Below are positions 9,994-46,288 of a DNA stretch of 64,000 nucleotides, one piece after another. Source of the DNA: Opitutaceae bacterium. Its GTDB lineage: Bacteria > Verrucomicrobiota > Verrucomicrobiia > Opitutales > Opitutaceae. Each line of letters opens with the position of its first letter. Position 1 is the stretch's first letter. Below the pieces are notes generated by a model. The model was not told the DNA's origin and searched no databases. It worked only from the letters and a program-made list of their open reading frames with translations. The translations under genes and the position numbers were made by a program. The DNA is taken from contig JAIXWF010000013.1 in assembly GCA_027482185.1 (NCBI GenBank), positions 1,178,001 to 1,242,000 of the forward strand, given 5' to 3'.

Positions 9994-10020
9994 TCTTCGG
10001 CACGCGGGGCCCGCCGCTGA
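9994..10020 (-). promoter_or_regulatory. Weak sigma28-like promoter for the Pro-rich/TPR/FlgN-like operon
   Basis: Read on the minus strand: TCAG, 15 bp, GCCGAAGA. The -10 matches the better sites in this window, but the -35 has G in place of the fourth A. It lies about 55 bp upstream of the ATG at 9941. Confidence 0.35.
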
Positions 10021-10053
10021 AATGAAATTGCGGCCGGCTGCGCCGGCGCGCGG

Positions 10054-11964
10054 TCAGCGCGAATCGAGCACGCCGCGGAGCTGGCGGCCGAGGTCGTCCA
10101 GCTTGTAGGGCTTCTGGATGAAGCCCCGTTGGCCGAGCTGCTCGAACTCCTGGCGGACCTCCGCGGTGAGGTGGCCGCTGATGATCAGCACCTTGAGCTG
10201 CGGCCGGCAGATGCGGCTGACCTTCAGCACGTCGACGCCGCTGGCGCCGGGCATGTTGAGATCGAGCAGCATCGCGTCGAAGCGGCGCGAGGTGTCGCTG
10301 ATGGCCTCGATCGCCTCGATTCCGGAGGCGGCGGTGCTGGTGACGTAGCCCTTGCGGCTGAGCGCGGAGGAAAGAAGGGTGCGCAGCGACTCCTCGTCGT
10401 CGACGATGAGCACGTTTTCCGAACCGCCGGGAAACTCGGTCGGGGCGGAGACGGTGGCGATGGTCGCCGGGGAAGCGGCGAGCGGCAGGTAGACGCGGAA
10501 GGTGCTGCCGGCGCCGAGCACGCTGTCGACTTCGATGAAACCGTGGTGCGCCACGACGATGCCGTAGACGACGGCGAGACCGAGGCCGGTGCCGTGGTTG
10601 CCCTGCTTGGTGGTGAAGAACGGTTCGAAGATCCGCTGCCGCACCTCCGGCGTCATGCCGGTGCCCGTATCGGAAACTTCGAGACAGGCAAAGTCGCGGC
10701 CGGACTCGGCGCCGAGGTGCCGCAGCGCGGAACCGGGCCGCGTGGAGGTCGAAAGGGTGATGGCGCCGCCGGACGGCATCGCGTCGCGGGCGTTCACGCA
10801 GAGATTCAGGACGATCTGCTGCAGCTGGTTCTGGTCGGCGAGCAGGTTCGGCAGGCGGTCGCGCAGGGCGAGCTGGATGGTGACCGTGCGGGGAAACGTT
10901 TCCGCCATCAAGTGCACGAGATCGCGCGCGAGCTGGTTGAGATCGACCGGCGAGAAGCGGACCTCGGTCTTGCGGCTGAAGGTGAGGATCTGGCGCACGA
11001 GGCCGCTGGCGCGCTGGGCGGCCCGGTGGATCTCGCGGAGGCTCTTCTGCAGCATCGCCGGCTCGGGCGTGCCCTGCTGGCAGAACTCGGCGTAGCCGTT
11101 GATGATCGCGAGCAGGTTGTTGAAATCGTGGGCGATGCCGCCGGCGAGCGTGCCGAGGCTCTCCATCTTCTGGGCCTGGCGGAGCTCGTGCTCGAGTTTC
11201 TTGCGCTCGGTGATGTCCTCGCGGAGGCAGAGATAATTGGTGATGTCGCCGGCCGGGCTGCGCAGGCAGGAAACTTTGACCGACTCCCAGACGGTGCTGC
11301 CGTCGCGCCGCGTGGTGGTGAGTTCGCCGCGCCATTCGCCGCCGGCGCGGACCGTGGTCCAGAAATTGTCGAAGGAGAGCTGGTCGGGGTGGCCGTCGCG
11401 CAGGACCTCGATGTTGCCGTCGAGGATGTCCTCGAGGGTGTGGCCGCTGACGGCCGTGTACTTGGAATTCACGTACTGGGCGCGGCCGTCGAGGTCGGTG
11501 ATGACGATCGAGACGGGCGACTGTTCGACGGCGCGGGACAGCCGGTAGAATTGTTCCTCCGCGAGGCGCTGCCGGGTGATGTCGCGGCCGATCGCGCGGA
11601 TGGCGACGATGGCGCCGGCCTCGTCGTGGAGCGCGGATTCCTCCCACGAGAACCAGCGGACGCCCTGCGGCGTGAGCCAACGGTGCTCGGCCACGGCGCG
11701 GTGCGGCGGGCGCACGAGGTCGACGGCGCCGGGCGCCCACGACGGGCGGTCGTCGGGGTGGAGGAGTTCGGCAACCCGGCAGTCGCTGAGCGTCTGGCTG
11801 GTGCGGCCGAATTTGCGGGCGAAGGTGTTGTTCGCGACCAGCAGCTTGCCCTGCAAATCCCGGCAGTAGGCGGCGTCCGCGCTGTTTTCCCAGGCGCCGA
11901 GCCAGGCGTCGTAGGGAGATTTGGAGCCGGCGCGATCGATCGCCTCGGTCAGCAGGACGGACAT
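10054..11964 (-). CDS. Hybrid sensor histidine kinase (PAS-PAS-HK-REC)
   Basis: This 636-residue protein has no membrane segment. Two PAS domains (about 18-130 and 140-255) end in GRDITRQR and [10 protein letters not shown] HisKA domain carries the phospho-acceptor His279 in [12 protein letters not shown], and a HATPase domain has [14 protein letters not shown]-terminal receiver (about 515-636) has VDDEE and acceptor Asp568 in LLDLNMPG. The cytoplasmic PAS sensing and the attached receiver suggest internal phosphotransfer to an unknown partner. It lies 52 bp downstream of the HDOD gene on the same strand and is probably cotranscribed from the sigma28-like promoter at 13002. Confidence 0.92.
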
Positions 11965-12016
11965 GGTGAAAAGGTGAGGGCCGAACCGGCCGGGGCCGGC
12001 CGCGGCGCGAAGAAAC

Positions 12017-12943
12017 TCAGATCAGGCCCTGCAGCATCGAGGGCAGGCGTTGGATGGAGTTGGCGAGGGAAGCGCGGGCCAGCTTGGATTCGGGACCGTC
12101 CGCGCCGTAAAGGATCCGCCAGCCGCTGAGCTGGAGCCAGGCGTCGGCCGCGACCGGGGCGACCTGCTCGAAACCGCCGCCGATGCCGGCGTGGCGCACG
12201 ACGTGGTCCGCGATCTGCACGGCCGCCGCGAACAGGCGGTGGCGCGGGGCGCGGTCGGGATCGTTGTGGTAGCGCAGGGCGAAGACGATTTCCTCGGAAA
12301 GGCTGTGGCGGGCGGCGTAATGCGCGCCGATCTGGCCGTGGTCCCAGCCGATGAGATCGCGCTCGAATCTGCAGAACTCGGCGGGATCGGCGGCGGGCAT
12401 CGCCATCAGCGTGCGCAGCTCGTCGGGAAACGAATAGGCCATGACGACCTTCCCGACATTGTGCAGCAGGCCGATGAGATAATCGGTGTCGTCGTCGATG
12501 TGGAGCTGCGTCGAGGCGAGGATCTCGCGTGTGAGGATCGCGGTGGCGATGCTGTGCGTCCACAGTTCCTTCCACGGCAGCGAGGCGGTGGTGACGGGCT
12601 GGAGGGTCTCGAGTTCCTCGATGATCGGCGTCGCCATCGAGAGTTCGCGGATCTGCCGGAGGCCGAGGAAAAACACGGCTTCCTCGATGTTGTTCACGCG
12701 GGTGGAAAGCCCGAAGTAGACGGAGTTGACCATCCGCAGGAGGCGGGCCGAGAGCGAAGGGTCGCGCCGGATCACTTCGGCGATCTGGGAGCTGAGACTC
12801 TGCTCGGAACGGACCAGGTCGCTTAGGGCCCGATTGATGCTTTGGAGCGACGCGAGCTTGGGGCAGGCGTCGATCCGGCGGCGCAGTTCGTCTTCGGCGA
12901 AGGGCGTCGCGCGCGAAGGCGGCACGAGGTTCATCGTAAGCAT
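12017..12943 (-). CDS. HDOD-domain protein with an altered HD motif
   Basis: The 308-residue protein is covered by one HDOD domain: LSSQIAEVIRRDPSLSARLLRMVNSVYFG, VNNIEEAVFFLGLRQIREL and HSLSEEIVFALRYHNDP. HDOD proteins are non-enzymatic relatives of HD phosphohydrolases that act in signalling, often with chemotaxis or cyclic-di-GMP circuits. The HD pair reads H161-N162 in LLHNVGK, in keeping with loss of metal-dependent catalysis. ATGs at 12943 and 12934 are both possible. A sigma28-like promoter at 13002-13028 gives a leader of about 50 nt. Its neighbours are a hybrid kinase downstream and a divergent GT41 gene. Confidence 0.9.
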   Translation of the reverse strand: MLTMNLVPPSRATPFAEDELRRRIDACPKLASLQSINRALSDLVRSEQSLSSQIAEVIRRDPSLSARLLRMVNSVYFGLSTRVNNIEEAVFFLGLRQIRELSMATPIIEELETLQPVTTASLPWKELWTHSIATAILTREILASTQLHIDDDTDYLIGLLHNVGKVVMAYSFPDELRTLMAMPAADPAEFCRFERDLIGWDHGQIGAHYAARHSLSEEIVFALRYHNDPDRAPRHRLFAAAVQIADHVVRHAGIGGGFEQVAPVAADAWLQLSGWRILYGADGPESKLARASLANSIQRLPSMLQGLI

Positions 12944-13001
12944 GCGGGTGCGGTGGAAAGTGGTTGCGGAGGGCGGGCGGGAGCGCCCGGAGCCGGTGAA
13001 A

Positions 13002-13028
13002 GTATCGGCGCAACCGGGGTGCGCTTGA
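13002..13028 (-). promoter_or_regulatory. Sigma28 (FliA)-like promoter for the HDOD-kinase operon
   Basis: Read on the minus strand: TCAA at 13028-13025, 15 bp spacer, GCCGATAC at 13009-13002. This differs from the classical TAAA-N15-GCCGATAA at one -35 position and one -10 position. It sits back to back with the plus-strand site at 13041. Confidence 0.72.
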
Positions 13029-13040
13029 GGTGGTTTCTAC

Positions 13041-13068
13041 TCAAGTTGCGCGCCGGGTGTGCCGAAGC
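13041..13068 (+). promoter_or_regulatory. Sigma28-like promoter for the GT41 gene
   Basis: TCAA at 13041-13044, a 16 bp spacer and GCCGAAGC at 13061-13068. Both the spacing and the CTACTCAAGT context match the site at 46261. Transcription would begin near 13075, so the GTG at 13030 cannot be the start for this promoter. Confidence 0.55.
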
Positions 13069-13080
13069 TCCCGGCAATCC

Positions 13081-20981: not shown

Positions 20982-22037
20982 ATGACTCCCCGCTTCAGCA
21001 TCCAAGGCCGCGCCATCGGACCCGGGCACCCGGTGTACGTCATCGCCGAAATGTCGGCCAACCATAACCAGGATTTTGCCCAGGCCGCCGAGATCGTGCG
21101 GGCGGCCAAGGCGGCGGGCGCCGACGCGCTCAAGCTGCAGACCTACACGCCGGACACGATGACGCTGAACCTGCGCACGCCGGAATTCCAGATCGGCGCC
21201 GGCACGATCTGGGCCGGACGCAATCTGCATGAGCTCTACGGCGAGGCCTGCACCCCGTGGGACTGGACCCCGCGGCTCAAGGCGCTGGCCGAGAGCCTCG
21301 GGCTGCACTGTTTCTCGACGCCCTTCGATTTCACGGCGGTCGATTTCCTCGAAGGAATGGATGTGCCGGCCCACAAGATCGCCTCGTTCGAGATCGTCGA
21401 CCTGCCGCTGATCCGCCGGGTGGCGCGCACCGGGAAACCGACGATCATTTCGACCGGCATGGCTTCGATGGCCGAGATCGACGACGCGGTGCGGGCGTTC
21501 CGGCAGGCGGGCGGCCGGGACCTGGCCCTGCTCAAGTGCACCAGCGCGTATCCGTCGCCGCCGGACGAAATGAACCTCCGCACCATCCCGCATCTCGGCG
21601 CGACCTTCGGCACGGTGGCCGGATTGTCGGACCACACGATGGGCGTGGCCGTCCCCGTCGCCGCCGTCGCGCTCGGCGCCTGCATCGTCGAGAAACACTT
21701 CACGCTTTCCCGGTCCCAGCCGGGCCCCGACAGCGCGTTCTCGCTCGAGCCCGCCGAGTTCAAGGCGATGGTGGACGCCATCCGCGTCACGGAACAGGCG
21801 CTCGGCCGCGTCAGTTACGAGATGACGTCCAAAGAGCAATCGAGCTGCGTGTTTCGCCGTTCGCTGTTCGTCACCGCCGACGTCAAGGCCGGCGAGGTGT
21901 TCGGCGAACACAATGTCCGTTCGATTCGTCCCGGCACCGGGTTGCCGCCGAAGCATTGGGACCAGGTCGTCGGCCGGCGCGCCAGCCGCGACATCGCGCG
22001 CGGCACGCCGCTGGACTGGCCGCTGCTCGGGGCCTGA
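20982..22037 (+). CDS. pseI: Pseudaminic acid synthase
   Basis: The 351-residue protein has the NeuB-type TIM barrel. Motifs are VIAEMSANHNQD, KLQTYTPDTMT, FSTPFDFTAVDFLE, KCTSAYPSPPDEMNL, SDHTMG and VEKHFTLSR. A C-terminal antifreeze-like SAF domain follows (about 290-350). It condenses the 6-deoxy-altrose derivative with phosphoenolpyruvate to give pseudaminic acid or an N-acyl variant. The KLQTYTPDT motif is the PseI rather than the NeuB form. The start lies 18 bp after the formyltransferase-like gene. Confidence 0.93.
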   Translation: MTPRFSIQGRAIGPGHPVYVIAEMSANHNQDFAQAAEIVRAAKAAGADALKLQTYTPDTMTLNLRTPEFQIGAGTIWAGRNLHELYGEACTPWDWTPRLKALAESLGLHCFSTPFDFTAVDFLEGMDVPAHKIASFEIVDLPLIRRVARTGKPTIISTGMASMAEIDDAVRAFRQAGGRDLALLKCTSAYPSPPDEMNLRTIPHLGATFGTVAGLSDHTMGVAVPVAAVALGACIVEKHFTLSRSQPGPDSAFSLEPAEFKAMVDAIRVTEQALGRVSYEMTSKEQSSCVFRRSLFVTADVKAGEVFGEHNVRSIRPGTGLPPKHWDQVVGRRASRDIARGTPLDWPLLGA

Positions 22038-33389: not shown

Positions 33390-33416
33390 GGAACGGCACC
33401 TAGGCCGTCGGATTAA
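33390..33416 (-). promoter_or_regulatory. Sigma28-like promoter for flagellin 1
   Basis: Read on the minus strand: TTAA, 15 bp, GCCGTTCC. The -10 is identical to that of the plus-strand site at 38908-38915. Confidence 0.5.
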
Positions 33417-33594: not shown

Positions 33595-34410
33595 TCAACC
33601 GCCGATCAGCCGGAGGGCGATCTGCGTGCTCTGGTTGGCCTGCGACAGCATCGCCGTGCCGGACTGGACCAGGATGTTCCAGCGGGCGAGCTGGGTCGAT
33701 TCCGCCGCCACATCCACGTCCGTGATCCGGCTCGCGGCGGCCTCGAGGTTGGCCTTGTTCACCGTGAGCAGTTCGGCGGCGAAGCCGAAGCGGCTCTGTT
33801 CGGCGCCGTTCTCGGCGCGGAAGGTGGCGACATTCTGGATCGCGGAAGTGATGTCGGTCAGGGCGATGTCGGCGAGCGAATCGACCGTGGTGGCCGTCAG
33901 GGCGCCGATACCTTCGGTGGTGCCGGAGAGTTCGCGGCCCAGAATGGACACCGACGTGGCGCCGTCCTCGGTCACGCTGACGCTCAGGTCGGAGGTGCCG
34001 AAGAGCGACACGGAGTTGAACTCCTCGGTGGTGAGGTCGCTCAGCTGCGTCTGGAGTTCGGTGAACTCCGAATCGTAGTTGGCGAGATCGCTCGAGCTCT
34101 TGGTCGGGTCGGCGTAGAGGGTCTTCAGCTCGCCCATACGGTCGAGGACTTTGCCCGCGACCTTGAGGACGCCGTCCTGCGTCTGCAGGAAGGAAACGGC
34201 ATTGCCGATGTTGGTGTTGACCGCGCCCTGGCGGCGGGCGGCGGCGGACAATTTCATCGAGACGGCCAAGCCGCCGGCGTCGTCCGCCGGGGTGACAATC
34301 TTGGAGCCGCTCGAGAGCCGGTTCAGGCTCTTCTGCAACGAAGCGTTGGAGGCGGCGAGGTTGTTCGCCGCCACGGTGGCAGCGAAGTTCGTGTTGATGA
34401 CGACTGACAT
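33595..34410 (-). CDS. fliC: Flagellin 2
   Basis: The 271-residue flagellin is closely similar to flagellin 1 along its whole length (MSVVINTNFAATVAANNLAA; DVAAESTQLARWNILVQSG; final IALRLIGG). Most differences fall in the short central region (about 120-185). The ATG at 34410 has AAGGAAG at a good distance. A long leader of roughly 100 nt runs from the sigma28-like site at 34513. The 350 bp between the two flagellins holds the leader and promoter of flagellin 1, so each copy appears to have its own promoter. Confidence 0.96.
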   Translation of the reverse strand: MSVVINTNFAATVAANNLAASNASLQKSLNRLSSGSKIVTPADDAGGLAVSMKLSAAARRQGAVNTNIGNAVSFLQTQDGVLKVAGKVLDRMGELKTLYADPTKSSSDLANYDSEFTELQTQLSDLTTEEFNSVSLFGTSDLSVSVTEDGATSVSILGRELSGTTEGIGALTATTVDSLADIALTDITSAIQNVATFRAENGAEQSRFGFAAELLTVNKANLEAAASRITDVDVAAESTQLARWNILVQSGTAMLSQANQSTQIALRLIGG

Positions 34411-34512: not shown

Positions 34513-34540
34513 CTATCGTCGCGCCGCGAGAAAACCTTTA
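34513..34540 (-). promoter_or_regulatory. Sigma28-like promoter for flagellin 2
   Basis: Read on the minus strand: TAAA at 34540-34537, 16 bp, GACGATAG at 34520-34513. It has a perfect -35, and the 16 bp spacing also occurs at 13041 and 46261. It is paired divergently with the fliD promoter at 34600. Confidence 0.62.
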
Positions 34541-34599: not shown

Positions 34600-34626
34600 T
34601 CAAGCCGACCGCGCGCGTGCCGATAT
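34600..34626 (+). promoter_or_regulatory. Sigma28-like promoter for fliD
   Basis: TCAA, 15 bp, GCCGATAT. The -10 core GCCGATA is perfect. It lies 35 bp upstream of the fliD ATG. Confidence 0.78.
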
Positions 34627-34661: not shown

Positions 34662-36383
34662 ATGGCCTCCACCAGTCTCCAAGTCGCCGGTCTCGCTTCC
34701 AACTTCGATTGGAAGGCGTTCACCGACCAGATCATGGAACTGGAGCGCGCCCCGGCGGCCCGTCTCGAGGCGGAGCAGACGAAGAACAACACCCAGAATT
34801 CGCTGCTCAGCACGTTGGGCTCGCGGCTCGCGGCGCTGAACGACGCCGCCGACGCGCTCACGAGCAGCCTTTTCGGCAAGCGCACGGCCACGTCGGGTAC
34901 CTCCGGTTCCACCTGGGGCGCCGCCGCGGCTGCCGATACCGCCACGGGCTCCTATCGTATCGCCGTGTCGCAGCTCGCCACAAGCGCGACCCTCACGGGC
35001 ACGAGCGACCGCGGCAGCCGGCTCGCGACGACTTCCGATGTCTCGGGCCTGACGCTCGCGAATCTGCCGATCAGCCAGGCCGTGACCGCCGGTACCTTCA
35101 CGGTCAACGGGCAGCAGGTGACGGTCGCGCTCACCGACTCGCTCGAAACGGTGTTCGACGCGATCGACACCGCGACCGGCGGCGATGTCACCGCGCAATA
35201 CGACCCGACGGAAGACAAGATCACGCTGACCAGCACGAACGGCAACGTTGTCCTCGGTGCGGCGAACGACAGCTCCAATTTCCTGCGCGCCCTCAAGCTC
35301 GGCAACAACGGCTCCGCCGCCGTCTCGAGTTCGGCCAAGCTCGGTGTGCTCAAGACTTCGGCCGCGCTCGCGAGCGCGAATCTCGCCACCGCCGTGACGG
35401 CGGTCGACGGTTCGGGCAACGGGTCGTTTTCGATCAACGGCACGTCCATCTCCTACAACGTCAATTCCGACTCCCTCACGGCCGTGATGAAGCGGATCAA
35501 CGACTCCGCCGCGGGCGTCAGCGCGGTCTACGACGCCGTGAACGACCGGGTGCAGCTGGTGAACAAGAGCACCGGCGACCTCGGCATCGCGGTGAGCGAA
35601 TCGTCCGGCGGCCTGCTCGGGGCGCTCGGGCTGACTTCCGGCGCGACGCTTGGCCGGGGCGACAACGCGCTGTTCACATTGAACGGGGGCGACACGCTCT
35701 CTTCGGCGAGCAATTCGCTCGATGTGTCGGCCCACGGCATCACGGGGCTGGTGGTCGACGTGAAGACCGCGACCACGGAGACGATCACCGTCGCGTCCGA
35801 CGCCTCCGCGATGCGGACCAAGGTCGACGCCTTCATCGCCAAGTTCAACGACGTCCAGCAGTTCATCGACACGAACACCCGCGTCTCCGCCGACAGCAAG
35901 GGCAAGGTCACCGCGGCGGCCCTGTCCGGCAACCGCGAGATCCAGGATTGGTCCCGTTCGCTGCGCACGATGGCCTTTGCCTCGGTGAGCGGGCTCTCGG
36001 GCACGATTTCCCGGCTCAACGATCTCGGCATCGATTTCAAATCCGGCACCAACGAACTCGAGGTCAGCGACGAGAGCGCGCTGACGGACGCTTTGGAAAC
36101 TTCCCCGGCCGACGTCGGCGAGTTTTTCTCCAAGGCCTCGACCGGCTTCGCGGCGAAGTTCGGGACGTATCTGGACAACGTCGTCGCGCAGAACGACGAC
36201 CAGAAAGAGCGCCTGACGAAGGCCAACACCAGTCTCGACGACCAGATCGCGGCCATCGACCGCAGGTTGACGCAGCAGCGTTCGCTGCTCGAATCCGCGT
36301 TCATCGCGATGGAAAACGCGCAATCCAAGATCAAGCAGCAGCAGACCGCGCTGGACGGCATGATCAGCCAGCTCTCCCGCTGA
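34662..36383 (+). CDS. fliD: Flagellar filament cap protein FliD (HAP2)
   Basis: The 573-residue protein has the FliD N-terminal domain (VAGLASNFDWKAFTDQIMEL, about 7-26). The long Thr/Ser/Ala-rich middle (about 70-330) contains several flagellin-hook-like segments. The FliD C-terminal coiled coil ends near residue 573 (DQIAAIDRRLTQQRSLLESAF, then MISQLSR). FliD caps the growing filament and folds incoming flagellin. It is divergent from flagellin 2, and its stop overlaps the next ATG as TGATG. There is no strong Shine-Dalgarno sequence upstream. Confidence 0.95.
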   Translation: MASTSLQVAGLASNFDWKAFTDQIMELERAPAARLEAEQTKNNTQNSLLSTLGSRLAALNDAADALTSSLFGKRTATSGTSGSTWGAAAAADTATGSYRIAVSQLATSATLTGTSDRGSRLATTSDVSGLTLANLPISQAVTAGTFTVNGQQVTVALTDSLETVFDAIDTATGGDVTAQYDPTEDKITLTSTNGNVVLGAANDSSNFLRALKLGNNGSAAVSSSAKLGVLKTSAALASANLATAVTAVDGSGNGSFSINGTSISYNVNSDSLTAVMKRINDSAAGVSAVYDAVNDRVQLVNKSTGDLGIAVSESSGGLLGALGLTSGATLGRGDNALFTLNGGDTLSSASNSLDVSAHGITGLVVDVKTATTETITVASDASAMRTKVDAFIAKFNDVQQFIDTNTRVSADSKGKVTAAALSGNREIQDWSRSLRTMAFASVSGLSGTISRLNDLGIDFKSGTNELEVSDESALTDALETSPADVGEFFSKASTGFAAKFGTYLDNVVAQNDDQKERLTKANTSLDDQIAAIDRRLTQQRSLLESAFIAMENAQSKIKQQQTALDGMISQLSR

Positions 36384-37099
36384 TGAGCGCCGCCGGCAAA
36401 CGACGCCTCCGGGCGATGCTCGCGGCGGCCTGGGTGGCAGCGGTCGCCGGCTGCATGCATCCCGGTCCCCAGGACTCCGCCCGGCTCGGTCCCTTCTACG
36501 AACCGAAAAATGTCATGGCGGAACCCAACCTCGGCGGCCTGCGCCGGGTGGTGGTGCTGCCGGTCTGGAGCGGCAACGTTGCGCCGGCCGAGACGGCCGC
36601 CGAGTTGGACGTCGAAGTCGCCAACGCGCTGCAGCGCACGCATCGCTTCGAGGTCGTGAACGTTTCCCGCGAAGACAGCCTCCGCCGCTTCCGCGTCGAA
36701 GCCTTCTCGTCAGCGTCGGCCCTGCCGCCCGATCTTTTCACCCGGCTCCAGCGGGAGTACGCGGCGGACGGTGTGCTGTTCGTCGACGTCACCGTTTACA
36801 AGGCCTACCGGCCCGTCGCGATCGGCTTTCGCGCGAAACTGGCGTCGATCGACGGCCAGCGCCTGATCTGGACCTTCGACAACGTGTTTTCATCCGAGGA
36901 TCCGGCCGTGGCCAACGCGGCGCGGCACCATTTCCTCGATTCCGACCAGCGCGGGGTGCCGGCGGACCTGACCCACAGTGTCCTGCAATCCCCGGCCCGG
37001 TTCGCGGCTTATGCCACGACGGCGATGTTTGCGACGCTGCCCCCGGTGCTCAACGCAGCCGCGGATCCCGAAATGGCCCGGGCCGCCGTTAGTCGCTAA
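36383..37099 (+). CDS. Lipoprotein coupled to fliD
   Basis: The 238-residue protein has a lipobox (AAAWVAAVAGC, Cys at about residue 23) and no recognised family domain. Residues 50-165 (LRRVVVLPVWSGN, LDVEVANALQRTHRFEVVN, EYAADGVLFVDVTVYKAYRP) suggest the alpha/beta CsgG/TolB-N-like fold of outer-membrane assembly lipoproteins. That is a fold guess. It is translated from a TGATG overlap with fliD, which implies a role in the flagellum, for example as a cell-envelope ring or secretion accessory like FlgP or FlgT. Its own stop overlaps the -35 of the next promoter. Confidence 0.7.
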   Translation: MSAAGKRRLRAMLAAAWVAAVAGCMHPGPQDSARLGPFYEPKNVMAEPNLGGLRRVVVLPVWSGNVAPAETAAELDVEVANALQRTHRFEVVNVSREDSLRRFRVEAFSSASALPPDLFTRLQREYAADGVLFVDVTVYKAYRPVAIGFRAKLASIDGQRLIWTFDNVFSSEDPAVANAARHHFLDSDQRGVPADLTHSVLQSPARFAAYATTAMFATLPPVLNAAADPEMARAAVSR

Positions 37100-37123
37100 A
37101 GTCCGCGCAATTTTGTCCGATAT
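37097..37123 (+). promoter_or_regulatory. Sigma28-like promoter for the FlgM-like/fliS operon
   Basis: TAAA, 15 bp, TCCGATAT. The -35 is perfect and uses the TAA stop of the lipoprotein gene. One mismatch lies in the -10 core. Confidence 0.72.
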
Positions 37124-37196: not shown

Positions 37197-37481
37197 ATGA
37201 TTACCTCTACATCTTCCACCGACCGTCCGGTCCGGCCCGAAATGGTCGCCCCGGCGGGGCAGACCGCGGCCCGTCCCCTCGCGCCGCGTCCGGATCGGAT
37301 TTCGACGGAGAGCGCCGCCTTTCTGCGCGCCGAGTTGGCCCGCCAGCCCGAAATTCGTCCCGAGGTCGTCGCCCGCGGCAAGGAATTGGCCGCGGATCCT
37401 TCCTATCCGTCGTTCGAGACGCTGCGCAACGTCGCGCAGCAGATTCTCAAGGCGCCGGACCTGAGCGAAAGCGAAGCCTGA
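37197..37481 (+). CDS. Small protein, candidate anti-sigma28 factor (FlgM-like)
   Basis: The 94-residue product has a disordered, Pro/Arg-rich first half. A C-terminal helical region follows (SAAFLRAELARQPEIRPEVV, ARGKELAADPSYPS, LRNVAQQIL). Size, layout and the R-x-x-x-V...A/L-x-x-IL helix pattern resemble FlgM, whose C-terminal half binds sigma28 and which is secreted through the finished hook. Like flgM in enterobacteria it sits behind its own sigma28-like promoter, here together with fliS. Sequence similarity is too low for a firm call; a FlaG-like or other small flagellar protein is an alternative. Confidence 0.5.
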   Translation: MITSTSSTDRPVRPEMVAPAGQTAARPLAPRPDRISTESAAFLRAELARQPEIRPEVVARGKELAADPSYPSFETLRNVAQQILKAPDLSESEA

Positions 37482-37491: not shown

Positions 37492-37914
37492 ATGGTCGCC
37501 ACTGGCTACGCGCGGACCTACCGCGCCAACGCGATTCTGACCGCGAGCCCAGGGCAGCTCGTGCTGATGCTCTACGACGGGGCCCTCAAGGCCATCGGCC
37601 TCGCGCGGGAAGCCTTCGAGAACACCGCCGATCCGAAACGGATCGAGACGATCAACACGCAGTTGCTGAAGGCGCAGGCCATCATCGGCGAACTGCAAAA
37701 CGGCCTCAACCTGGAGGTGGGCGGCGAGTTCGCCCGCACCATGCACCGGCTGTACGATTATCACAACCGGCGCCTCCTCGAGGCGAACATCCGGAAACAG
37801 GTCGAACCCGTGGTCGAGGTGGAGCGGCTCGTGCGCGAGCTGCGCGACGCCTGGGCCCAGATGCTGTCCCAGCAGGACGGCGGTTCCATCGAGCATATCC
37901 GCGGCGTCGCCTGA
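37492..37914 (+). CDS. fliS: Flagellin export chaperone FliS
   Basis: The 140-residue protein matches FliS over its length: YRANAILTASPGQLVLMLYDGALKAI, then the four-helix core ending EVERLVRELRDAWAQML. FliS binds the C-terminal D0 helix of flagellin and prevents early polymerisation. It starts 10 bp after the FlgM-like gene and is followed 2 bp later by a FliT-like gene, the usual fliS-fliT order. Confidence 0.95.
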   Translation: MVATGYARTYRANAILTASPGQLVLMLYDGALKAIGLAREAFENTADPKRIETINTQLLKAQAIIGELQNGLNLEVGGEFARTMHRLYDYHNRRLLEANIRKQVEPVVEVERLVRELRDAWAQMLSQQDGGSIEHIRGVA

Positions 37915-37916: not shown

Positions 37917-38285
37917 ATGTCCGCAACCGCGCAAGACTGCGCGCGGATGGTGACCGCGCTCGCCGACCTGGCCGACCAGGAAGGAGCGGCGCTGCGGGCC
38001 GGGGATTATGCCGCCGTCGCCGGGATCCAGACGCGCTGCGCGCCCTTGCTCGAATTCCTGTCCGCGCACGCCGAAACGATGCGGGACCGGGCCGACCTCG
38101 TCGGCGAACTGCGCCGCATCCGGGCGTTGCGCAACGCGAGCTCCTCGCACCTGCAAAACCGTTTGGACGAGACCCGCGACGAACTCGGCACGCTGCAATC
38201 CTCGCGCCGGCGCCTCAATCAGGTCGCGCCCGCCTACGGCCACGCCGCGTCGGCGCCGCGCCGGCAGGTGAGTTTTGTCGGTTGA
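37917..38285 (+). CDS. FliT-like helical protein after fliS
   Basis: The 122-residue all-helical protein contains HLQNRLDETRDELGTLQSSRRRL at its C-terminal half. The layout resembles FliT/FlgN-like chaperones that keep FliD or junction proteins export-competent. Position immediately after fliS (2 bp gap) supports a flagellar chaperone role; sequence similarity alone is weak. It may be functionally related to the FlgN-like protein at 7417. Confidence 0.55.
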   Translation: MSATAQDCARMVTALADLADQEGAALRAGDYAAVAGIQTRCAPLLEFLSAHAETMRDRADLVGELRRIRALRNASSSHLQNRLDETRDELGTLQSSRRRLNQVAPAYGHAASAPRRQVSFVG

Positions 38286-38429: not shown

Positions 38430-38840
38430 TCAGCCGGCCGCCATCGCGAGGGGCTGCAGACCTTGCGCGTCGGCTTCGGCCGACGTGATCGTGGCCATCG
38501 CCGGCGGACCTTCGAGCCAAGCGGAAGCAACCCGGGACGCCTCGAGTTTCCAATTGGTGCTGGGCGTCGAGTAGACGGCGAGCACCGGGAAGGCCTCGCT
38601 GCCTTTCCAACTGAGGTTGGCTTTCAGGCACAGCGAACCGTCGGCCAGGACGAAGGCCTGGAGGAAGATGGAACCGCCCGGGTAGGGGAGGTCGGCCGCT
38701 GGTCGCGGCGTCAGCGTCAACCGGGCGAGCCCGTGGCTGAAATTCACCATCCGGATCGAGTCCCACGCCCCGCCGTCGACGACGGGGGATTCGGCGATGA
38801 GCGATTTTTCGACATCGGAAAGGAAGGAGAGCAGGCGCAT
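38430..38840 (-). CDS. Unknown 136-residue protein in the flagellar region
   Basis: I recognise no family. The protein has no signal peptide or membrane segment. It is predicted as mostly beta (VNFSHGLARLTLTPRP, GSIFLQAFVLADGSLCLKANLSW) with a short N-terminal helix (MRLLSFLSDVEKSLIAES). It has its own sigma28-like promoter (38851-38877) and a strong terminator, so it is a monocistronic late-flagellar gene if the promoter is real. The predicted transcript start is only about 4 nt before the ATG, suggesting nearly leaderless translation. A role as a filament, motor or secretion accessory is inference. Confidence 0.7.
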   Translation of the reverse strand: MRLLSFLSDVEKSLIAESPVVDGGAWDSIRMVNFSHGLARLTLTPRPAADLPYPGGSIFLQAFVLADGSLCLKANLSWKGSEAFPVLAVYSTPSTNWKLEASRVASAWLEGPPAMATITSAEADAQGLQPLAMAAG

Positions 38841-38850: not shown

Positions 38851-38877
38851 AGATCGGCTCCGGCGGGGCAAACTTGA
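38851..38877 (-). promoter_or_regulatory. Sigma28-like promoter (minus) of a palindromic divergent pair
   Basis: Read on the minus strand: TCAAGTTT, 11 bp, GCCGATCT. It matches the classical TAAAGTTT-N11-GCCGATAA at all but three positions. Confidence 0.78.
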
Positions 38878-38888: not shown

Positions 38889-38915
38889 TCAAGTTTCGCG
38901 GTCCCGTGCCGTTCC
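38889..38915 (+). promoter_or_regulatory. Sigma28-like promoter (plus) of a palindromic divergent pair
   Basis: TCAAGTTT, 11 bp, GCCGTTCC. The two -35 boxes form the inverted repeat AAACTTGAGCG-gattt-CGCTCAAGTTT. The transcript would start at or next to the ATG at 38922. Confidence 0.6.
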
Positions 38916-38921
38916 CCGGCC

Positions 38922-39368
38922 ATGCCCCCCGGCGTTTTGCCCCCCAGCCCCGGGAATTTTGCCCCCCAGCCCGCGGCGGTCGCGACGGAACCGTTGCCGT
39001 CCCGCGCCATTCTTTTGGTCGAGGACGACGATGCCGTGGCGGGGTTGATCGGGATGATTTTGGGCCGCTCCGGCCACACCGTGGTCCGGGCGCGCTCCTG
39101 CGCCGAGGGCCTCCGGTGCTTCCGCACGGAAGGGGACCGCGTGGCCCTGGCGATTGTCGACGCCGGTTTGCCCGACGGCGACGGGGCCCTCATCGGCCGG
39201 CGGCTGCGCGAACTCGCGCCGTCCCTGCCGGTGCTGCTCACCAGCGGTCGCGACCGGAGCCGTTTCGCCGCGTCCTGCGCCGACCCGCGGGTGGGTTACC
39301 TGGCGAAACCCTTCCGCCCGGCCGAAGTCGCGACGGCGGTGGGGCGTTTGCTGGGCGGGACCTACTGA
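38922..39368 (+). CDS. Single-domain response regulator
   Basis: The 148-residue protein has a Pro-rich lead (residues 1-27), then one receiver domain. The acidic pair lies in ILLVEDDDAVAG, acceptor Asp80 in AIVDAGLPDGDG, Ser/Thr in LLTSGRDRS, and Lys in YLAKPFRPAEV. There is no output domain, so it acts by protein contact or phosphotransfer. The ATG at 38922 coincides with the predicted start of transcription from the sigma28-like promoter, implying a leaderless message. The open frame further upstream runs antisense through another gene and is not real. Confidence 0.85.
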   Translation: MPPGVLPPSPGNFAPQPAAVATEPLPSRAILLVEDDDAVAGLIGMILGRSGHTVVRARSCAEGLRCFRTEGDRVALAIVDAGLPDGDGALIGRRLRELAPSLPVLLTSGRDRSRFAASCADPRVGYLAKPFRPAEVATAVGRLLGGTY

Positions 39369-39478: not shown

Positions 39479-40960
39479 ATGTCATTCGAGAAAATCCTGA
39501 TCGTCGAAGACGATTTGGTCGTCCGCAACCTGCTCCAAAGCATTTTCATGCGGCACAAATTGCCGGTGAGCGTGGCGGGCAGTCTGGCGGAAGCGCAGGC
39601 GCACCTCGCCCGGGAGCAGTTCGATCTGATGATGCTCGATTTGCGGCTGCCCGACGGCGACGGCCTCAAGTTTCTCGAACAGGTCGCCACGATCCCCGAG
39701 CGGCCGCTGGTCGTGATGGTCACGGGCTTCGGGTCGATCGAATCCGCCGTCGCCTGCATGCGGGCCGGCGCCTTCGACTATGTGCTGAAGCCGTTTTCGC
39801 CGTCGCAGATCGACGTGATTTTGCGGAAGGCGCAGACCTACCGCCAACTCGTCAAGGTCAACAATCTCCTCAGCGACAACCCCGACGACGAAGACGGCCT
39901 GCTGGTCGGCCGCAGTCCGGCGATGACGCGTTTGCGGCAGCTGATCGACCGCGTCGCCCCGACCGATGCCACCGTGCTCGTCACGGGCGAGAGCGGCACC
40001 GGCAAGGAAATGATCTCCCGCGAATTCTACCGCCGCAGCCCGCGCCGCGGCCAGCCGTTCATCAAGGTCAACTGCGCCGCCGTTTCCCAGACCCTGATCG
40101 AGAGCGAATTTTTCGGCCATGAGCGCGGCGCGTTCACCGGCGCGACGGAGCGGCGCGAGGGTCGTTTCGAACTGGCGAACAACGGGACGCTCCTGCTCGA
40201 CGAGGTCAGCGAAATCCCGCCCAGCTTGCAGGCGAAGCTTCTGCGCGTGCTGCAGGAGCGCGAATTCGAACGCGTCGGCGGCAGCCGCACGATCAAGGTC
40301 AACGTCCGCATCATCGCGACCTCCAACCGCGACCTGATGAGCAACGTGACCAAGGGCGAATTCCGGCAGGATCTCTATTACCGGCTCAACGTGTTCCCGG
40401 TCCATGTGCCGGCGCTGCGGGAACGGACCGAGGACATTCCGCTGCTTGCGGACCACTTCCTCATGCGTTTCACGCGCAAACACGGCGTGCGGGTCACCGG
40501 ATTTTCCGATTCCGCGCGCGCGGCCCTGCTCGCGTACCGCTGGCCGGGCAATGTCCGCGAACTCCAGAACACCGTCGAACGCGCCGTGATTCTGAGCGAA
40601 TCCGGCCGGCCCGTGTCCGCGGCCGCGCTCGGCCTGCCGGGCGATCTCACCGCCACCGACGCCAATTCGATGGCGCCGTGGGGCGAGACCGATCCCGTCG
40701 GCTTCGTCAACGACGGGGCGGCGCCCGCTCCTGCGTCGGTGGCGGTCGAGACGTCCGGTCTCACCGACGGCAACGGCCAGGTGCTGCGCCTCGAGGAATT
40801 GGAAAAACAGGCGATCCGCGCCGCCCTGCGGCAGACCGCGGGCAACCGCACGCAGGCCGCGGCGGCGCTCGGCATCAGCATCCGGACCCTGCGCAACAAA
40901 CTGCAGGAGTACCGCGACGCCGGCGACCCGATCGACGCCGGCGTCGAGTCCGAGGTCTGA
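39479..40960 (+). CDS. NtrC-family sigma54-dependent regulator
   Basis: The 493-residue protein has a receiver (acceptor Asp54 in MMLDLRLPDGDG) and an AAA+ domain with Walker A GESGTGKE (near 170). GAFTGA (near 217) is the sigma54-contact loop, and LLLDEVSEI is Walker B. A C-terminal Fis-type helix-turn-helix follows (LRQTAGNRTQAAAALGISIRTLRNKLQEY). Proteins of the FleR/FlgR type control hook and basal-body genes with sigma54. Given its place among flagellar genes that is a reasonable role, although no sigma54 promoter was found in the window. Confidence 0.93.
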   Translation: MSFEKILIVEDDLVVRNLLQSIFMRHKLPVSVAGSLAEAQAHLAREQFDLMMLDLRLPDGDGLKFLEQVATIPERPLVVMVTGFGSIESAVACMRAGAFDYVLKPFSPSQIDVILRKAQTYRQLVKVNNLLSDNPDDEDGLLVGRSPAMTRLRQLIDRVAPTDATVLVTGESGTGKEMISREFYRRSPRRGQPFIKVNCAAVSQTLIESEFFGHERGAFTGATERREGRFELANNGTLLLDEVSEIPPSLQAKLLRVLQEREFERVGGSRTIKVNVRIIATSNRDLMSNVTKGEFRQDLYYRLNVFPVHVPALRERTEDIPLLADHFLMRFTRKHGVRVTGFSDSARAALLAYRWPGNVRELQNTVERAVILSESGRPVSAAALGLPGDLTATDANSMAPWGETDPVGFVNDGAAPAPASVAVETSGLTDGNGQVLRLEELEKQAIRAALRQTAGNRTQAAAALGISIRTLRNKLQEYRDAGDPIDAGVESEV

Positions 40961-41085: not shown

Positions 41086-41112
41086 TAAACCACCGCCTGA
41101 ATCGGCCGATAT
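41086..41112 (+). promoter_or_regulatory. Sigma28-like promoter for cheX and the REC-REC-STAS gene
   Basis: TAAA, 15 bp, GCCGATAT, a perfect -35 and -10 core. The last two bases overlap the ATG at 41111, which therefore cannot be the translation start of this transcript. Confidence 0.78.
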
Positions 41113-41143: not shown

Positions 41144-41668
41144 ATGCCCGCCACCGCTGAAATTACCGAAGCGCTGATCCGAGAGTACATCAATCGCGCT
41201 GTCACCGATGTTTTCAAAACGATGGTCGGCCGCGAGCCGTCCTTCAGTACGCCGGCCGATACCCCGCAGCTTTCCCAGTCGCTCACGCCGCCCGACCGCC
41301 CGCAGGTCGTCGGCACCGTCGGCTTTCTGGGCGACGTCAACGGACTCGTCTATCTCCACCTCGACCTCGCCTTCGCGCGGCTGTGCACCTGCCACCTCCT
41401 CGGCATGACGGAACAGGAACTCGAGGAGGCGGGCGACGAAGTGATCAACGACGCGATCGGCGAGATGACCAACATGACGGTCGGCAGTTTCAAGAACGGC
41501 CTCTGCGACGCCGGCTATCCGTGCAAGCTCACGATCCCGTCGATTTTGCGCGGCACCAATTTCTCCATCGAGCCCATCAGCTCGGCGGTGCGGCACGTTT
41601 ACTTCTTCGACTGCGCGGAACACCGCGTGGTCGCCGACATCCTCATGAAGTCCGACGACCAGGGCTGA
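41144..41668 (+). CDS. cheX: CheX-type chemotaxis phosphatase
   Basis: The 174-residue protein has the CheC/CheX fold with the active-site pattern E-x-x-N in NDAIGEMTNMTVGSFKNGL. It keeps the acidic and amide residues needed to dephosphorylate CheY-P. A single such motif and an N-terminal helix (ITEALIREYINRAVTDVF) point to CheX rather than CheC. The frame opens at 41009 and has an ATG at 41111 inside the promoter -10, so I chose the ATG at 41144, giving a leader of about 25 nt. It is followed after 16 bp by the REC-REC-STAS gene. Confidence 0.85.
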   Translation: MPATAEITEALIREYINRAVTDVFKTMVGREPSFSTPADTPQLSQSLTPPDRPQVVGTVGFLGDVNGLVYLHLDLAFARLCTCHLLGMTEQELEEAGDEVINDAIGEMTNMTVGSFKNGLCDAGYPCKLTIPSILRGTNFSIEPISSAVRHVYFFDCAEHRVVADILMKSDDQG

Positions 41669-42933: not shown

Positions 42934-43063
42934 GGCCCCCGGCGCCGCCGGACCGCACGCCGCCGGACCGCCGGAAGTCTCGCGTTGACGCCGTCCGGGC
43001 CGGCCGCGAAGTTCGGTGCAACATTTTCCCGTTCGCCCCGTCCCATTGGGGCCCTCCCAACGC

Positions 43064-44314
43064 ATGAAACTCCTTCGTCTCGCCCTTGTTGCCTTCGCGT
43101 CGACCCTCGGTTTGGCCTACGCCCAGGACGAAGAGCGCCGCGCGCCCCCGGTCGAAATCCCCGATTTCAGCAATCTCGACGAATATATCTATGAGCCGAA
43201 GAGCACCGTGACCTTCGGCTTCCGCTACGTCAGCGGCGCCAAGACCCGCTTCTCCGGCCAAGGCCGGATTTCCGCGCCGGAAAATCCCGGCGACCTGACC
43301 GGCGCCAACCTGACCCGCAACTACCACAACGGCACCGTCCAGCCCGATTCCCGGACCGTGGTCCGCACGGACAGCGCCGGCAATCCGGTGATCGATCCCG
43401 ACACCGGCGCCCGTGCCTTCGACCCCATTTCCCCCGACGGCCGCACGAACACCTGGAGCTACATCGATTCCAGCCAGCTCACGGCCAACGGCTACATCGC
43501 CTTCAGCACCTACTCGGCCGATGTCATCGACACCTCGGTCCGCGAGAAGGACAGCGCCAGCAGCGCCGGCATGGACATCGCGATGCACCGCGACATGGGC
43601 AAACTCTTCGGCGGCCGCGTCGCGTGGAACCTCACCGCCGGCCTCTCGATCAACGACATCGCTTCCAGCACGCAGGATCGCGTCCGCGCCACGATGCGCA
43701 CGCTGACCGACTTCTACTCCCTCTTCGGCCAGACGCCCCCGGCGCCGCCCTATTCCTCGCCCAGCACGTCGACCGAGAATGTCCTCGATGCCAGCGGCAA
43801 CCCGCTCCTCAACGACGACGGCAGCATCCGTACGCTGACCTCCGACACATCCGTTCTCATCGGCAACCAGCCGGCCGGCCGCACCGAGACCGCCGTCACC
43901 AACGACACCAGCGTGACCAACCGCTGGAAACTCAAGGGCGCCTACTACACGATGCGCGTCGGCCCCACGCTGCTGTTTGCGATCACCAACCGCCTCAAGG
44001 CCAGCGTCAGCGTCGGCGCCGCCGTCGTCTATTCCGGCGCCAGCTACACCGTCACGCAGACCTTCCAGCCCGAACTCGGCGCGGAGATTTCCGAGACCGT
44101 CACCAACGCCGACTACAAATTGCTCCCCGGCTACTACGCGGATGCGACGGTGCAGTTCGACCTGACGGAGCGCGCCGGTTTCTACGCGGGTGCGATTTTC
44201 CAATCCGCGGGCAGCTACACGCAGTCGGTGGAAAACTCGTCGGCGACCTACGCCACGAAGATCGACCTTTCGAACCAGAACGGCGTCCGCGCCGGCATGT
44301 CGATCCGCTTCTGA
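43064..44314 (+). CDS. Outer-membrane beta-barrel-like protein
   Basis: The 416-residue protein has a signal peptide (MKLLRLALVAFASTLGLAYA). It has alternating hydrophobic/polar strands (TVTFGFRYVSG, RLKASVSVGAAVVYSG, YADATVQFDL) and ends in the C-terminal phenylalanine MSIRF typical of BAM substrates. An insertion rich in Asn, Asp and Thr (about 95-140) looks like an extracellular loop. I recognise no specific family. The frame opens at 43016, but the ATG at 43064 gives the signal peptide. It stands alone behind the terminator at 42892 and is convergent with ispH. Confidence 0.75.
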   Translation: MKLLRLALVAFASTLGLAYAQDEERRAPPVEIPDFSNLDEYIYEPKSTVTFGFRYVSGAKTRFSGQGRISAPENPGDLTGANLTRNYHNGTVQPDSRTVVRTDSAGNPVIDPDTGARAFDPISPDGRTNTWSYIDSSQLTANGYIAFSTYSADVIDTSVREKDSASSAGMDIAMHRDMGKLFGGRVAWNLTAGLSINDIASSTQDRVRATMRTLTDFYSLFGQTPPAPPYSSPSTSTENVLDASGNPLLNDDGSIRTLTSDTSVLIGNQPAGRTETAVTNDTSVTNRWKLKGAYYTMRVGPTLLFAITNRLKASVSVGAAVVYSGASYTVTQTFQPELGAEISETVTNADYKLLPGYYADATVQFDLTERAGFYAGAIFQSAGSYTQSVENSSATYATKIDLSNQNGVRAGMSIRF

Positions 44315-44356
44315 GTTCCGGCCCGCCGGCCTTGGCCGGCGCGGGCCGCCTCCGCG

Positions 44357-46066
44357 TCACTCCGCGGTTTCGAGTTCGCGCAGCACGTCGGCCACCGGCC
44401 GCAGCTGCTCCGGCGGGAAGAACCCGTTGATCCGCGCGATCACCTGCTGGATGATTCCGTCCGGGCAACTGGCGCCGCCCGTGAGCAAAATGCGTTTCGA
44501 CCCGCCGGCGAGATCGAGGGCGCGCACTTCGGTGCGGCCGGTGCCGCCCCCGCCGTAGACGTAGTGGTCGACGCCTTGGGCGGAAACAATGCCCGCTTCC
44601 GATTGGATGAAGTACGCCCGCGGCCCGAGCTGCTGTTCGCAGAGCCGGAAGAGCTGGTAGGTGTTCGAGGAATTCTTGCCGCCGAGCACGAAGGCCGCGT
44701 CGAGCGGCTCCGCCAGCGCCCGGCTGAGCGCGTCCTGGTTTACCTGCGTGGCGTAGCACAGCGTGTCGCGTCGGCTGCTGCCGCCGACGCGGAGTTCGTC
44801 GCCGGTCTGCTCGCGGTAGACGGACCGCAGCAGTTCGATGATCCCGAGGGTCTCGTTCATCAGCAGCGTCGTCTGGTTGACGACGGCAATGCGCTCGAGG
44901 TGGCGGTCGACGTCGAAGTCCGGCGTGTGCCGCCCCGCGAACCACTCGGCGAAACGCGCGCGCCGCTCCGGGCCGCGCGCGGCGATGACTTCCCCGAGCT
45001 GTTTCGCCTCGGCGAGGTTGCGGACGATCAGCGCCGGCGCGAATCGGCGCGTGTTCGAGAACGTCGCCTTCGTTTCCTCGTGCTCGTGCTTGCCGTGGAT
45101 CACGACGGTGTAGCCCTCGCGGCCGTAGGCGCGCGCGGCTTTCCAGACTTTTTCCACCAGCATGCAGGTCGCGTCGTATTGGCAGACCGCGATGCCCTTC
45201 CTCACCAGACGGCGCTTGTCGTCGTCCGTGGCGCCGAAGGCGGGGATGATCACGATGTCGTCCGGCGTCAGCGTATCCCAGCGCGTGGTTTCGCGCCCGT
45301 CCGGCCCCGGCGCGGTGTACGGCACGCCTTTGTCCGTCTGCAGGTAGCGCAGGCCGCGGCGCAGGAGGTCCTCGTTGACGAACGGATTGTGGATCAGTTC
45401 CGAAAGCATGAATACGCGCCGGCCCGGGTGCGCGGCGAGCGTCTCGTAGGCCTTCTCGATCGCGTTCTTCACGCCGAGGCAGAAGCCGAAGTGGCTGGGG
45501 ATGACGTAGCGCACGGCGCCGAAATCCAGCGTGACGGGCGCGGCGGCCGTGCGTTCGTGGCGGCGGGCGAGGGCTTTGATCGCGGCGCAAAGTTGCGACT
45601 GGTACAGCGCGCCGGCGGCCGAATCCTGCGCGTAGATCGCGGTGTTCCGCTCCTGGGCCGGGCGGAATTTGTAGATGAAGTCGTTCTCGCCGAGGTGCAG
45701 GTACGGAATCTCCGCGAGAAACGGATCCAGTGCCGGCAACAGCGCCGCGAGGGAAGGGGCCAGTGCGGCCGGATCGGCCGACAAACCGTCGAGCGCGCGG
45801 AAAACGATCTCGGCGTCGGCCGGCACGCCCTGGACCTGCGTGAGGCAAACGCGGTAGCTGCGGCCCGCGGCCGTGGCCGAGAAATACTCGGTCACCGCCG
45901 TGTGTTCCCGGAATGCGCCCTCGAGCCGCGCCGTGGCCATCGCGAGATCGCTGCCGGTGAAGGCGAGGCCCGCCTTGGAGCCGAGGCGCCGCACGGCGAG
46001 CTGGTTGTTCGCGTTGAAGGCGAGGATGGCGAAGAGCAGGGGAGGGGCGGCGACGGCCGTGGACAT
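44357..46066 (-). CDS. ispH: 4-hydroxy-3-methylbut-2-enyl diphosphate reductase with long N-terminal extension
   Basis: The 569-residue product ends in a full IspH (LytB) domain from about 180. The three Fe-S cysteines are C196 (HFGFCLGVKNAIEKA), C301 (DATCMLVEKVWKAA) and C534 (LTGGASCPDGI). HGKHEHEET and NQTTLLMNET are also present. The enzyme makes IPP and DMAPP in the MEP pathway. The domain is of the longer form (near 390 residues). The first 175 residues form an additional domain of unknown function (FAILAFNANNQLAVRRLG, TGSDLAMATARLEGAFREHT). I chose the ATG at 46066, the first residue of that domain. Confidence 0.9.
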   Translation of the reverse strand: MSTAVAAPPLLFAILAFNANNQLAVRRLGSKAGLAFTGSDLAMATARLEGAFREHTAVTEYFSATAAGRSYRVCLTQVQGVPADAEIVFRALDGLSADPAALAPSLAALLPALDPFLAEIPYLHLGENDFIYKFRPAQERNTAIYAQDSAAGALYQSQLCAAIKALARRHERTAAAPVTLDFGAVRYVIPSHFGFCLGVKNAIEKAYETLAAHPGRRVFMLSELIHNPFVNEDLLRRGLRYLQTDKGVPYTAPGPDGRETTRWDTLTPDDIVIIPAFGATDDDKRRLVRKGIAVCQYDATCMLVEKVWKAARAYGREGYTVVIHGKHEHEETKATFSNTRRFAPALIVRNLAEAKQLGEVIAARGPERRARFAEWFAGRHTPDFDVDRHLERIAVVNQTTLLMNETLGIIELLRSVYREQTGDELRVGGSSRRDTLCYATQVNQDALSRALAEPLDAAFVLGGKNSSNTYQLFRLCEQQLGPRAYFIQSEAGIVSAQGVDHYVYGGGGTGRTEVRALDLAGGSKRILLTGGASCPDGIIQQVIARINGFFPPEQLRPVADVLRELETAE

Positions 46067-46260
46067 GGAAGGAACGGGAAACGTGGGACATCGGCGCGTC
46101 CGTCGCAAGGGGCGGATTTCGCGGCGCGGGATGACACGGAATTCCGCGGACCGGACGGCGTCCCTCGCCCGCCGTCGCAAACCGCGGTCCCGGCGTTGAA
46201 ACGGACGTAAATCTCCCGTCCCGCGGGGCGGATTCCCCGGGTCCAGGCTGCGAATACTAC

Positions 46261-46288
46261 TCAAGTCGCAAACGGGCTGTGCCGAAAG
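46261..46288 (+). promoter_or_regulatory. Sigma28-like promoter for the TonB-C/chemoreceptor operon
   Basis: TCAA, 16 bp, GCCGAAAG, 23 bp before the ATG at 46311. The spacing and the CTACTCAAGT context match the site at 13041. Confidence 0.58.

Follow-up and report, generated by a model that had tools for sequence, protein, structure and literature searches.

In Vibrio, Campylobacter and other polar flagellates, flagellar cascades run from sigma54 to sigma28 (FliA). Sigma54 control of motility has already been reported in the Opitutia (PMC12316311), and the Escherichia coli FliA promoter has the consensus TAAAGTTT-n11-GCCGATAA (PMC2859248). Here we describe a set of FliA-type promoters in 64,000 nucleotides of an Opitutaceae genome of the Verrucomicrobiota (the window; G000:C3:1178001-1242000 in our numbering of genomes and contigs). 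The source genome comprises 6.43 Mb on 24 contigs and is 98% complete. An earlier note had picked out eleven sites in the window by eye and read them as sigma28 promoters of flagellar, chemotaxis and glycosylation genes. All eleven strings are present where it placed them. Nine sites, 13002(-), 13041(+), 34513(-), 34600(+), 37097(+), 38851(-), 38889(+), 41086(+) and 46261(+), are very probably promoters of FliA RNA polymerase, to judge from sequence, and would make up the final tier of a flagellar cascade leading from sigma54 to sigma28; the other two, 33390(-) and 9994(-), did not hold up.

The nine sites share with the E. coli FliA promoters a TNAAG −35 element, a spacer of 11–12 bases, a GCCGATA −10 element and a position ahead of flagellin, fliD and chemotaxis genes. 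Unlike in E. coli, the second −35 base may be A, C or T, some genes carry a GCCGAA variant, and the regulon has extra members. The genome encodes FliA itself: a single protein (C3:1565133-1565804) lies above the cut-off of TIGR02479 (FliA/WhiG), with 232 bits. Its gene is part of the main flagellar cluster, ∼320 kb away from the window, in the block following flhA; in this cluster flhA was called by profile and flhB, flhF and motAB by eye, and the flgB match falls slightly below the cut-off. A crude consensus scan gives the sigma54-like sites upstream of flgB and of flhB a score of 14, the highest value among 88 control genes being 13.5. The locus thus resembles the Vibrio and Campylobacter cascades in its sigma54 activator, in the sigma54-like sites before flgB and flhB and in the position of fliA after flhA; it differs in belonging to the Verrucomicrobiota and in that no master regulator was identified. 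The window holds two flagellins, fliD, fliS, fliT, cheX, a sigma54-dependent response regulator, NeuB alongside neighbouring sugar genes and two proteins that combine tetratricopeptide repeats (TPR) with a GT41 glycosyltransferase domain (Table 1).

The window was scanned with the E. coli consensus. At least 12 of the 16 consensus positions matched at four sites, all of them intergenic, where 0.35 would be expected in the intergenic part of a window that is 92% coding by the gene caller used. With at least 11 matches there were 33 sites, nine intergenic and 24 coding; the motif alone is unselective, and weak sites carry no meaning by themselves because most are coding. A weight matrix, a check that the earlier note had proposed, was trained on 38 sites (27 upstream of fliD, including the window's own, and 11 upstream of flagellin orthologues), which a first matrix, derived from the consensus and four sites of the window, had picked. 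The trained matrix reads TMAAG...GCCGATA, with 11 or 12 bases separating two 8-base elements. In 524 kb of the genome, all 10 distinct sites of at least 17 bits lie directly upstream of predicted genes, three of these coming from stretches chosen for pattern matches. Of the 48 rows listed with at least 12 bits, 26 fall in coding sequence, so lower-scoring sites need other support. Among control upstream regions of the same genome, one of 204 genes had a site at 11 bits and none at 12; these came from 14 sampled stretches, with three GCCGATA-pattern stretches omitted and two of the 14 including GCCGAAA pattern matches. Genome-wide, the pattern TNAAG-n14-GCCGAWA occurs in 13 places and its reversed control in nine, so that the loose pattern is likewise unselective; all five GCCGATA matches directly precede genes, and the remaining eight read GCCGAAA. 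Equal frequency in coding sequence, which the note had named as grounds for giving up the motif, is thus found for weak sites but not for strong ones.

Comparison of homologous upstream regions, also proposed there, indicates that the sites recur before orthologues, against shuffle rates (our chance level in relatives) of 0.3–3.7% for the scored gene sets. In these counts a site is a match of at least 11 bits, the window's own genome is omitted, and many genomes are related, so the counts are not independent. Random windows of the relatives' loci give a less favourable chance rate, 8.4% at 11 bits, which is inflated because those loci hold the sites themselves. Eight of the nine sites are conserved before orthologues by this comparison; 38889(+) depends on the back-to-back evidence given below. 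The training gene fliD has a site in 27 of 29 relatives. Other genes gave little or nothing: fliT (0 of 14 orthologues), the gene at 36383 (0 of 12) and a response regulator with a STAS domain (3 of 14 at 11 bits). Among conserved sites with an 11-base spacer, the spacers are 0.29–0.42 identical and the eight core positions 0.92–0.94; since score decided which sites entered this comparison, only the low spacer identity is informative. Chance in a GC-rich genome, together with picking by eye, would suit the mostly coding weak matches, and it is the reading that holds for the two failed sites, 33390 and 9994. For the nine it is scarcely credible: the strongest sites lie upstream only, and recurrence before orthologues despite diverged spacers counts against chance.

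The flagellin and fliD sites calibrate the motif. In all 14 relatives' copies of the first flagellin, the site lies 101–103 bases upstream of the start codon. The earlier note had placed a further site, 33390(-), before the second copy; we rejected it as a flagellin promoter on its score of 8.7 bits and on the equivalent position, siteless in 12 of 12 relatives' second copies. A sigma54-like site is likewise not apparent there (scores of 9.5–10.5 in 13 upstream regions, the window's included, against a control median of 10.5). The second copy (32432-33244) stands in tandem, and read-through from the first is possible. The claim of a fliS promoter stood as to the site, which is found at 16 of 16 scored loci (23 given), 114–127 bases upstream, but not as to the gene: the promoter serves a putative flgM-fliS-fliT operon, and fliS itself has a site in 0 of 16 relatives. 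The −35 element of this promoter overlaps the stop codon of the gene at 36383. The first gene of the operon encodes a 79-residue protein, putatively the anti-sigma28 factor FlgM. The FlgM profile PF04316 matches 7 of 17 aligned family members weakly (best E 0.025) and the window protein not at all. A structural model predicts three helices (pLDDT 73; pTM 0.35, which is low); Foldseek found no match to it, and FlgM was absent from the PDB sequence matches.

Several genes behind the sites were not expected in a late flagellar set. The first is an HDOD-domain gene, whose site is conserved at 23 of 29 relatives' loci (shuffles 3.7%; 26 of 30 at 11 bits with the first, four-site matrix). A paralogue outside the window (position −21366) is also preceded by a site, of 17.0 bits. 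Within the family, 31 of 42 FliA-positive genomes, our own included, have an HDOD orthologue (30 nearly complete, one fragmented); among 31 FliA-negative genomes it is nearly full length in four (58–73% identity) and a fragment in one, and none of 15 FliA-negative genomes of the same genus has it. The HDOD proteins GsmR and SadB affect flagellar genes or motility (PMC6543031). The window protein shares with them a tie to motility; they act on motility, whereas the window gene is apparently a FliA target. It belongs to a group of four genes on one strand (7417-12943), the others encoding a histidine kinase, a TPR protein and a protein of 126 aa that by eye only resembles a flagellar chaperone; the order of the four is identical in genomes G042 and G041.

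Divergent from the HDOD gene is a TPR-GT41 gene, with a site conserved at 11 of 20 relatives' loci (at least 45% identity; 23 given, 29 fetched; shuffles 0.3%); the first matrix, applied without an identity filter, gives 8 of 26 at 11 bits. FlmG of Caulobacter, a flagellin glycosyltransferase, has an N-terminal TPR region, a C-terminal glycosyltransferase and a NeuB-type sugar pathway (PMC7591256). The window protein shares the layout and the NeuB-type pathway; unlike FlmG, it matches GT41 and carries a FliA-type promoter. By analogy it fits a flagellin glycosyltransferase, with flagellin as candidate substrate, which makes it less surprising in this set than the earlier note had held. The other unexpected members that it named (HDOD, TonB_C/chemoreceptor and a 136-residue protein) have sites that recur in relatives.

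The 136-aa protein belongs to an undescribed family. Its site recurs at 20 of 28 scored relatives' loci (29 given; shuffles 2.1%), and its gene follows FliA: 30 of 60 FliA-positive genomes have it versus none of 55 FliA-negative ones (115 in total, own included). Within the genus, the gene is present in 12 of 12 FliA-positive genomes (own included) and 0 of 15 FliA-negative genomes; it is absent from 42 genomes of the order's other families, 18 of them FliA-positive. Of 23 named loci, the closest, at 94% identity, is from an Opitutia bacterium; the labels of the rest read Opitutae, Opitutaceae, Opitutus, Didemnitutus or Verrucomicrobia. The sigma54 regulator was located in 22 named loci, and in all of them it is the divergent neighbour of the 136-aa gene. 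The structural model has a helix, five strands and a helix (pLDDT 76); a fold search with it gave no assignment, the rows for CapZ, Mediator, frataxin and phage coat proteins being indistinguishable from noise. The −10 element of the 136-aa promoter ends 10 bases ahead of the ATG (7–51 bases in relatives with an 11-bit site); if transcription begins ∼6–8 bases past the −10, the mRNA would be nearly leaderless.

The three divergent pairs claimed by the earlier note are real as geometry. In two of them, HDOD/GT41 and 136-aa/receiver, the −35 elements stand back to back, 6–13 bp apart where found; in the window's HDOD/GT41 pair the gap is 12 bp. An opposite TNAAG element 6–14 bp away occurs at 12 of 27 loci of the 136-aa gene, where 2.9% would be expected, and in the same test at 13 of 28 HDOD and 10 of 15 GT41 loci, which represent one shared intergenic region. 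Single promoters lack it: fliD (0 of 30), flgM-like (0 of 16), TonB_C (0 of 11) and CheX (0 of 8). The test omitted loci whose main site scored below 5.5 bits (below 8 in the fliD, flgM-like, TonB_C and CheX sets). The opposite element also goes with room for a receiver gene. Among the 22 named loci, those in which 611–831 bp separate the 136-aa gene from the sigma54 regulator have it in 12 of 12 cases and those with 181–377 bp in 2 of 10 (Fisher 1.4e-4). The long spaces hold a receiver domain in six of six frames tested and four more that are receiver-like by their residues; two (L085 and L101) have no clear intact receiver frame. Because of this back-to-back evidence and the receiver genes in long spaces, we keep 38889(+) as the receiver-gene promoter. 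Its −10 element ends six bases ahead of the predicted ATG, and the gene may start further downstream.

Such an arrangement might instead be a palindrome (TTGAG...CTCAA) that serves as operator for an activator or a repressor: the TCAAG elements of the window do form an inverted repeat, e.g., AACTTGAG...CTCAAGTT. We regard this as unlikely. Of the 12 outward elements at the 136-aa gene, 11 have an NNCG-type −10 behind them, and the outward element accompanies room for the receiver gene and is missing from single promoters such as fliD and the flgM-like operon. Taken as paired promoters, the elements might conceivably share one upstream RNA polymerase contact, because the −35 gaps of the HDOD/GT41 region (10–13 bp in 11 of 21 loci and 32–35 bp in three, with one site below 11 bits in 5 of these 14 loci, L138, L140, L141, L142 and L151) differ by about two helical turns.

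Two further promoters precede chemotaxis genes. The cheX site is found at 8 of 12 scored loci (23 given). Eleven of 12 cheX orthologues align only from residue 11–14; because of this, and because the −10 element overlaps the first ATG, cheX probably starts at its 12th residue. The TonB_C site recurs at 6 of 14 relatives' loci (17 given, 29 fetched). Where the TonB_C gene adjoins a chemoreceptor (methyl-accepting chemotaxis protein, MCP), 6 of 13 scored loci (own included) reach 11 bits; where it does not, 1 of 12.

The weakest candidate, 9994(-), was rejected at 3.2 bits. The earlier note had seen a plausible gene behind every site, but the ORF here has no gene-like translation. Of two orthologues of the gene at 7794, that of G042 has one 15.4-bit site upstream, at −455, and that of G041 has none; there may be a promoter upstream of these orthologues in relatives. 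A 416-aa protein (43064-44314) has sites 223–226 bases upstream in three of five relatives (18.8–21.5 bits) and no such site in the window (−4.4 bits). Elsewhere in the genome, FliA-type sites precede a CHASE hybrid histidine kinase (22.1 bits; L038:10556, G000:C20:60530-60555), a gene porin-like by eye with an MCP downstream on the same strand (20.1 bits; L037:11721, G000:C3:1781722) and a 3217-aa repeat protein (19.0 bits; L036:10840, G000:C3:200841). In the main cluster, cheR (L033:4281-5102; G000:C3:1544281-1545102) is divergent from flgB. A 15.7-bit FliA-type match before it mostly coincides, as reverse complement, with the sigma54-like site of flgB and was discounted as probably chance; a weaker match (12.3) lies closer to cheR.

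Several observations weigh against FliA as the reader of all nine sites. One fifth to over half of the scored orthologues of the unexpected genes lack an 11-bit site, and among the receiver gene's own orthologues 0 of 4 have one. None of the 38 training sites has the GCCGAA-type −10 that GT41, TonB_C and some receiver partners carry. No sigma28 site lies within 300 bases of a third flagellin, in the main cluster (G000:C3:1576579-1577457; 0.3 bits), and the 79-aa gene is a weak candidate for FlgM. What counts most against a strict FliA reading is that strong HDOD sites persist in three of four genomes without detected FliA, namely G042 (22.7 bits), G041 (20.6) and G055 (17.2); the fourth, G027, scores 8.0. 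FlhA was found in none of the four, and flagellin genes were not found in G041 and G042. Because flagellin genes are present in G055 and G027, their FliA may have been lost from the assembly rather than from the genome. Flagella that were lost recently, gaps in the assemblies or a different sigma factor could each explain these sites. Another sigma factor with a similar −10, reading the sites at the unexpected genes so that FliA is unneeded there, might be found among the 46 sigma region-4 matches in the genome, and the HDOD sites of G041 and G042 would suit it. We give it little credence: only one protein lies above the FliA cut-off, a single matrix trained on fliD and flagellin also fits the unexpected genes, and the 136-aa gene never occurs without FliA among the 115 genomes.

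The sigma28 reading has on its side the FliA gene, the fliD and flagellin calibration and conservation at the unexpected genes, and the regulon, of an ordinary kind, has good support at the level of sequence. We infer that FliA binds and transcribes the nine sites, that sigma54 and its activator act before it in the cascade, that FlgM controls it, and that the genes have the functions proposed here. The FlbD/FlgR-like activator (39479-40960) and sigma54 would turn on the flgB genes and the flhB-flhA-flhF-fliA-motAB block; the FlgM-like protein would hold FliA until the hook is complete; and freed FliA would transcribe the filament, chaperone, chemotaxis and glycosylation genes, with the HDOD, 136-aa, receiver and TonB_C/MCP genes as members of the same late set. 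The activator gene itself mostly lacks a FliA site of its own, only 2 of 22 relatives reaching 11 bits.

Table 1. Promoter sites and genes of the window (+, forward strand; −, reverse strand)
Feature	Positions	Strand	Score or evidence
Unsupported site of the earlier note	9994..10021	−	3.2 bits
HDOD-domain protein, 308 aa	12017..12943	−	PF08668 E 5.7e-45
FliA-type promoter of HDOD gene	13002..13028 (−35 13021-13028, −10 13002-13009)	−	17.8 bits
FliA-type promoter of TPR-GT41 gene	13041..13068	+	11.1 bits
TPR + GT41 glycosyltransferase, 628 aa	13081..14967	+	PF13844 E 4.9e-34 and TPR repeats; FlmG-like architecture
NeuB	20982-22037		
Unsupported site of the earlier note, before flagellin copy 2	33390..33416	−	8.7 bits; 0/12 relatives
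Flagellin copy 1	33595..34410	−	PF00669/PF00700
FliA-type promoter of flagellin copy 1	34513..34540	−	21.5 bits; 102 bases upstream of start codon
FliA-type promoter of fliD	34600..34626	+	23.3 bits
fliD	34662..36383	+	PF07195, PF02465
FliA-type promoter of putative flgM-fliS-fliT operon	37097..37123	+	20.2 bits
79-residue protein, putative anti-sigma28 FlgM	37242..37481	+	Weak PF04316 matches in family
fliS	37492..37914	+	PF02561 E 3.8e-37
fliT	37947..38285	+	PF05400 E 2.3e-7
136-aa protein, undescribed family	38430..38840	−	No Pfam or NCBIfam family
FliA-type promoter of 136-aa gene	38851..38877	−	20.6 bits
FliA-type promoter of receiver-domain gene	38889..38915	+	12.1 bits; 11 bp between its −35 and that of 38851(-)
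Single-domain response regulator	38922..39368	+	PF00072
Sigma54-dependent response regulator, FlbD/FlgR-like	39479..40960	+	PF00158; NCBIfam FlbD and FlgR models below cut-offs
FliA-type promoter of cheX	41086..41112	+	17.9 bits; −10 overlaps first ATG (41111)
cheX, corrected start (probable)	41144..41668	+	PF13690 E 1.7e-21
FliA-type promoter of TonB_C/chemoreceptor pair	46261..46288	+	15.7 bits
Short TonB_C protein (46311-46649) and MCP (46699-48690)	46311..48690	+	PF03544 E 5.8e-23; PF00015 E 4.9e-43

Among the literature matches listed, sigma28 promoters in Opitutaceae or Verrucomicrobiota were not described, nor were divergent sigma28 promoters as here, both of which are weak evidence of absence; HDOD proteins with FliA, or with motility and chemotaxis, were likewise not described as here among those listed. 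New here are an undescribed flagellum-linked family as a regulon member and the recurrent pair architecture; their roles we infer. It is conceivable, although we would not count on it, that a small, nearly leaderless, sigma28-driven protein found only with FliA and encoded divergently from the sigma54 activator forms, together with the paired promoters, a flagellar module dedicated to the Opitutaceae, in which the promoters might fire in a coupled or mutually exclusive manner and the small protein might feed back on the activator or on export. The analysis gives a sigma28 regulon for the Verrucomicrobiota in testable form, highlights the 136-aa proteins as a conserved flagellum-linked family and describes how sigma28-type promoters recur back to back, an arrangement open to tests of coupling.

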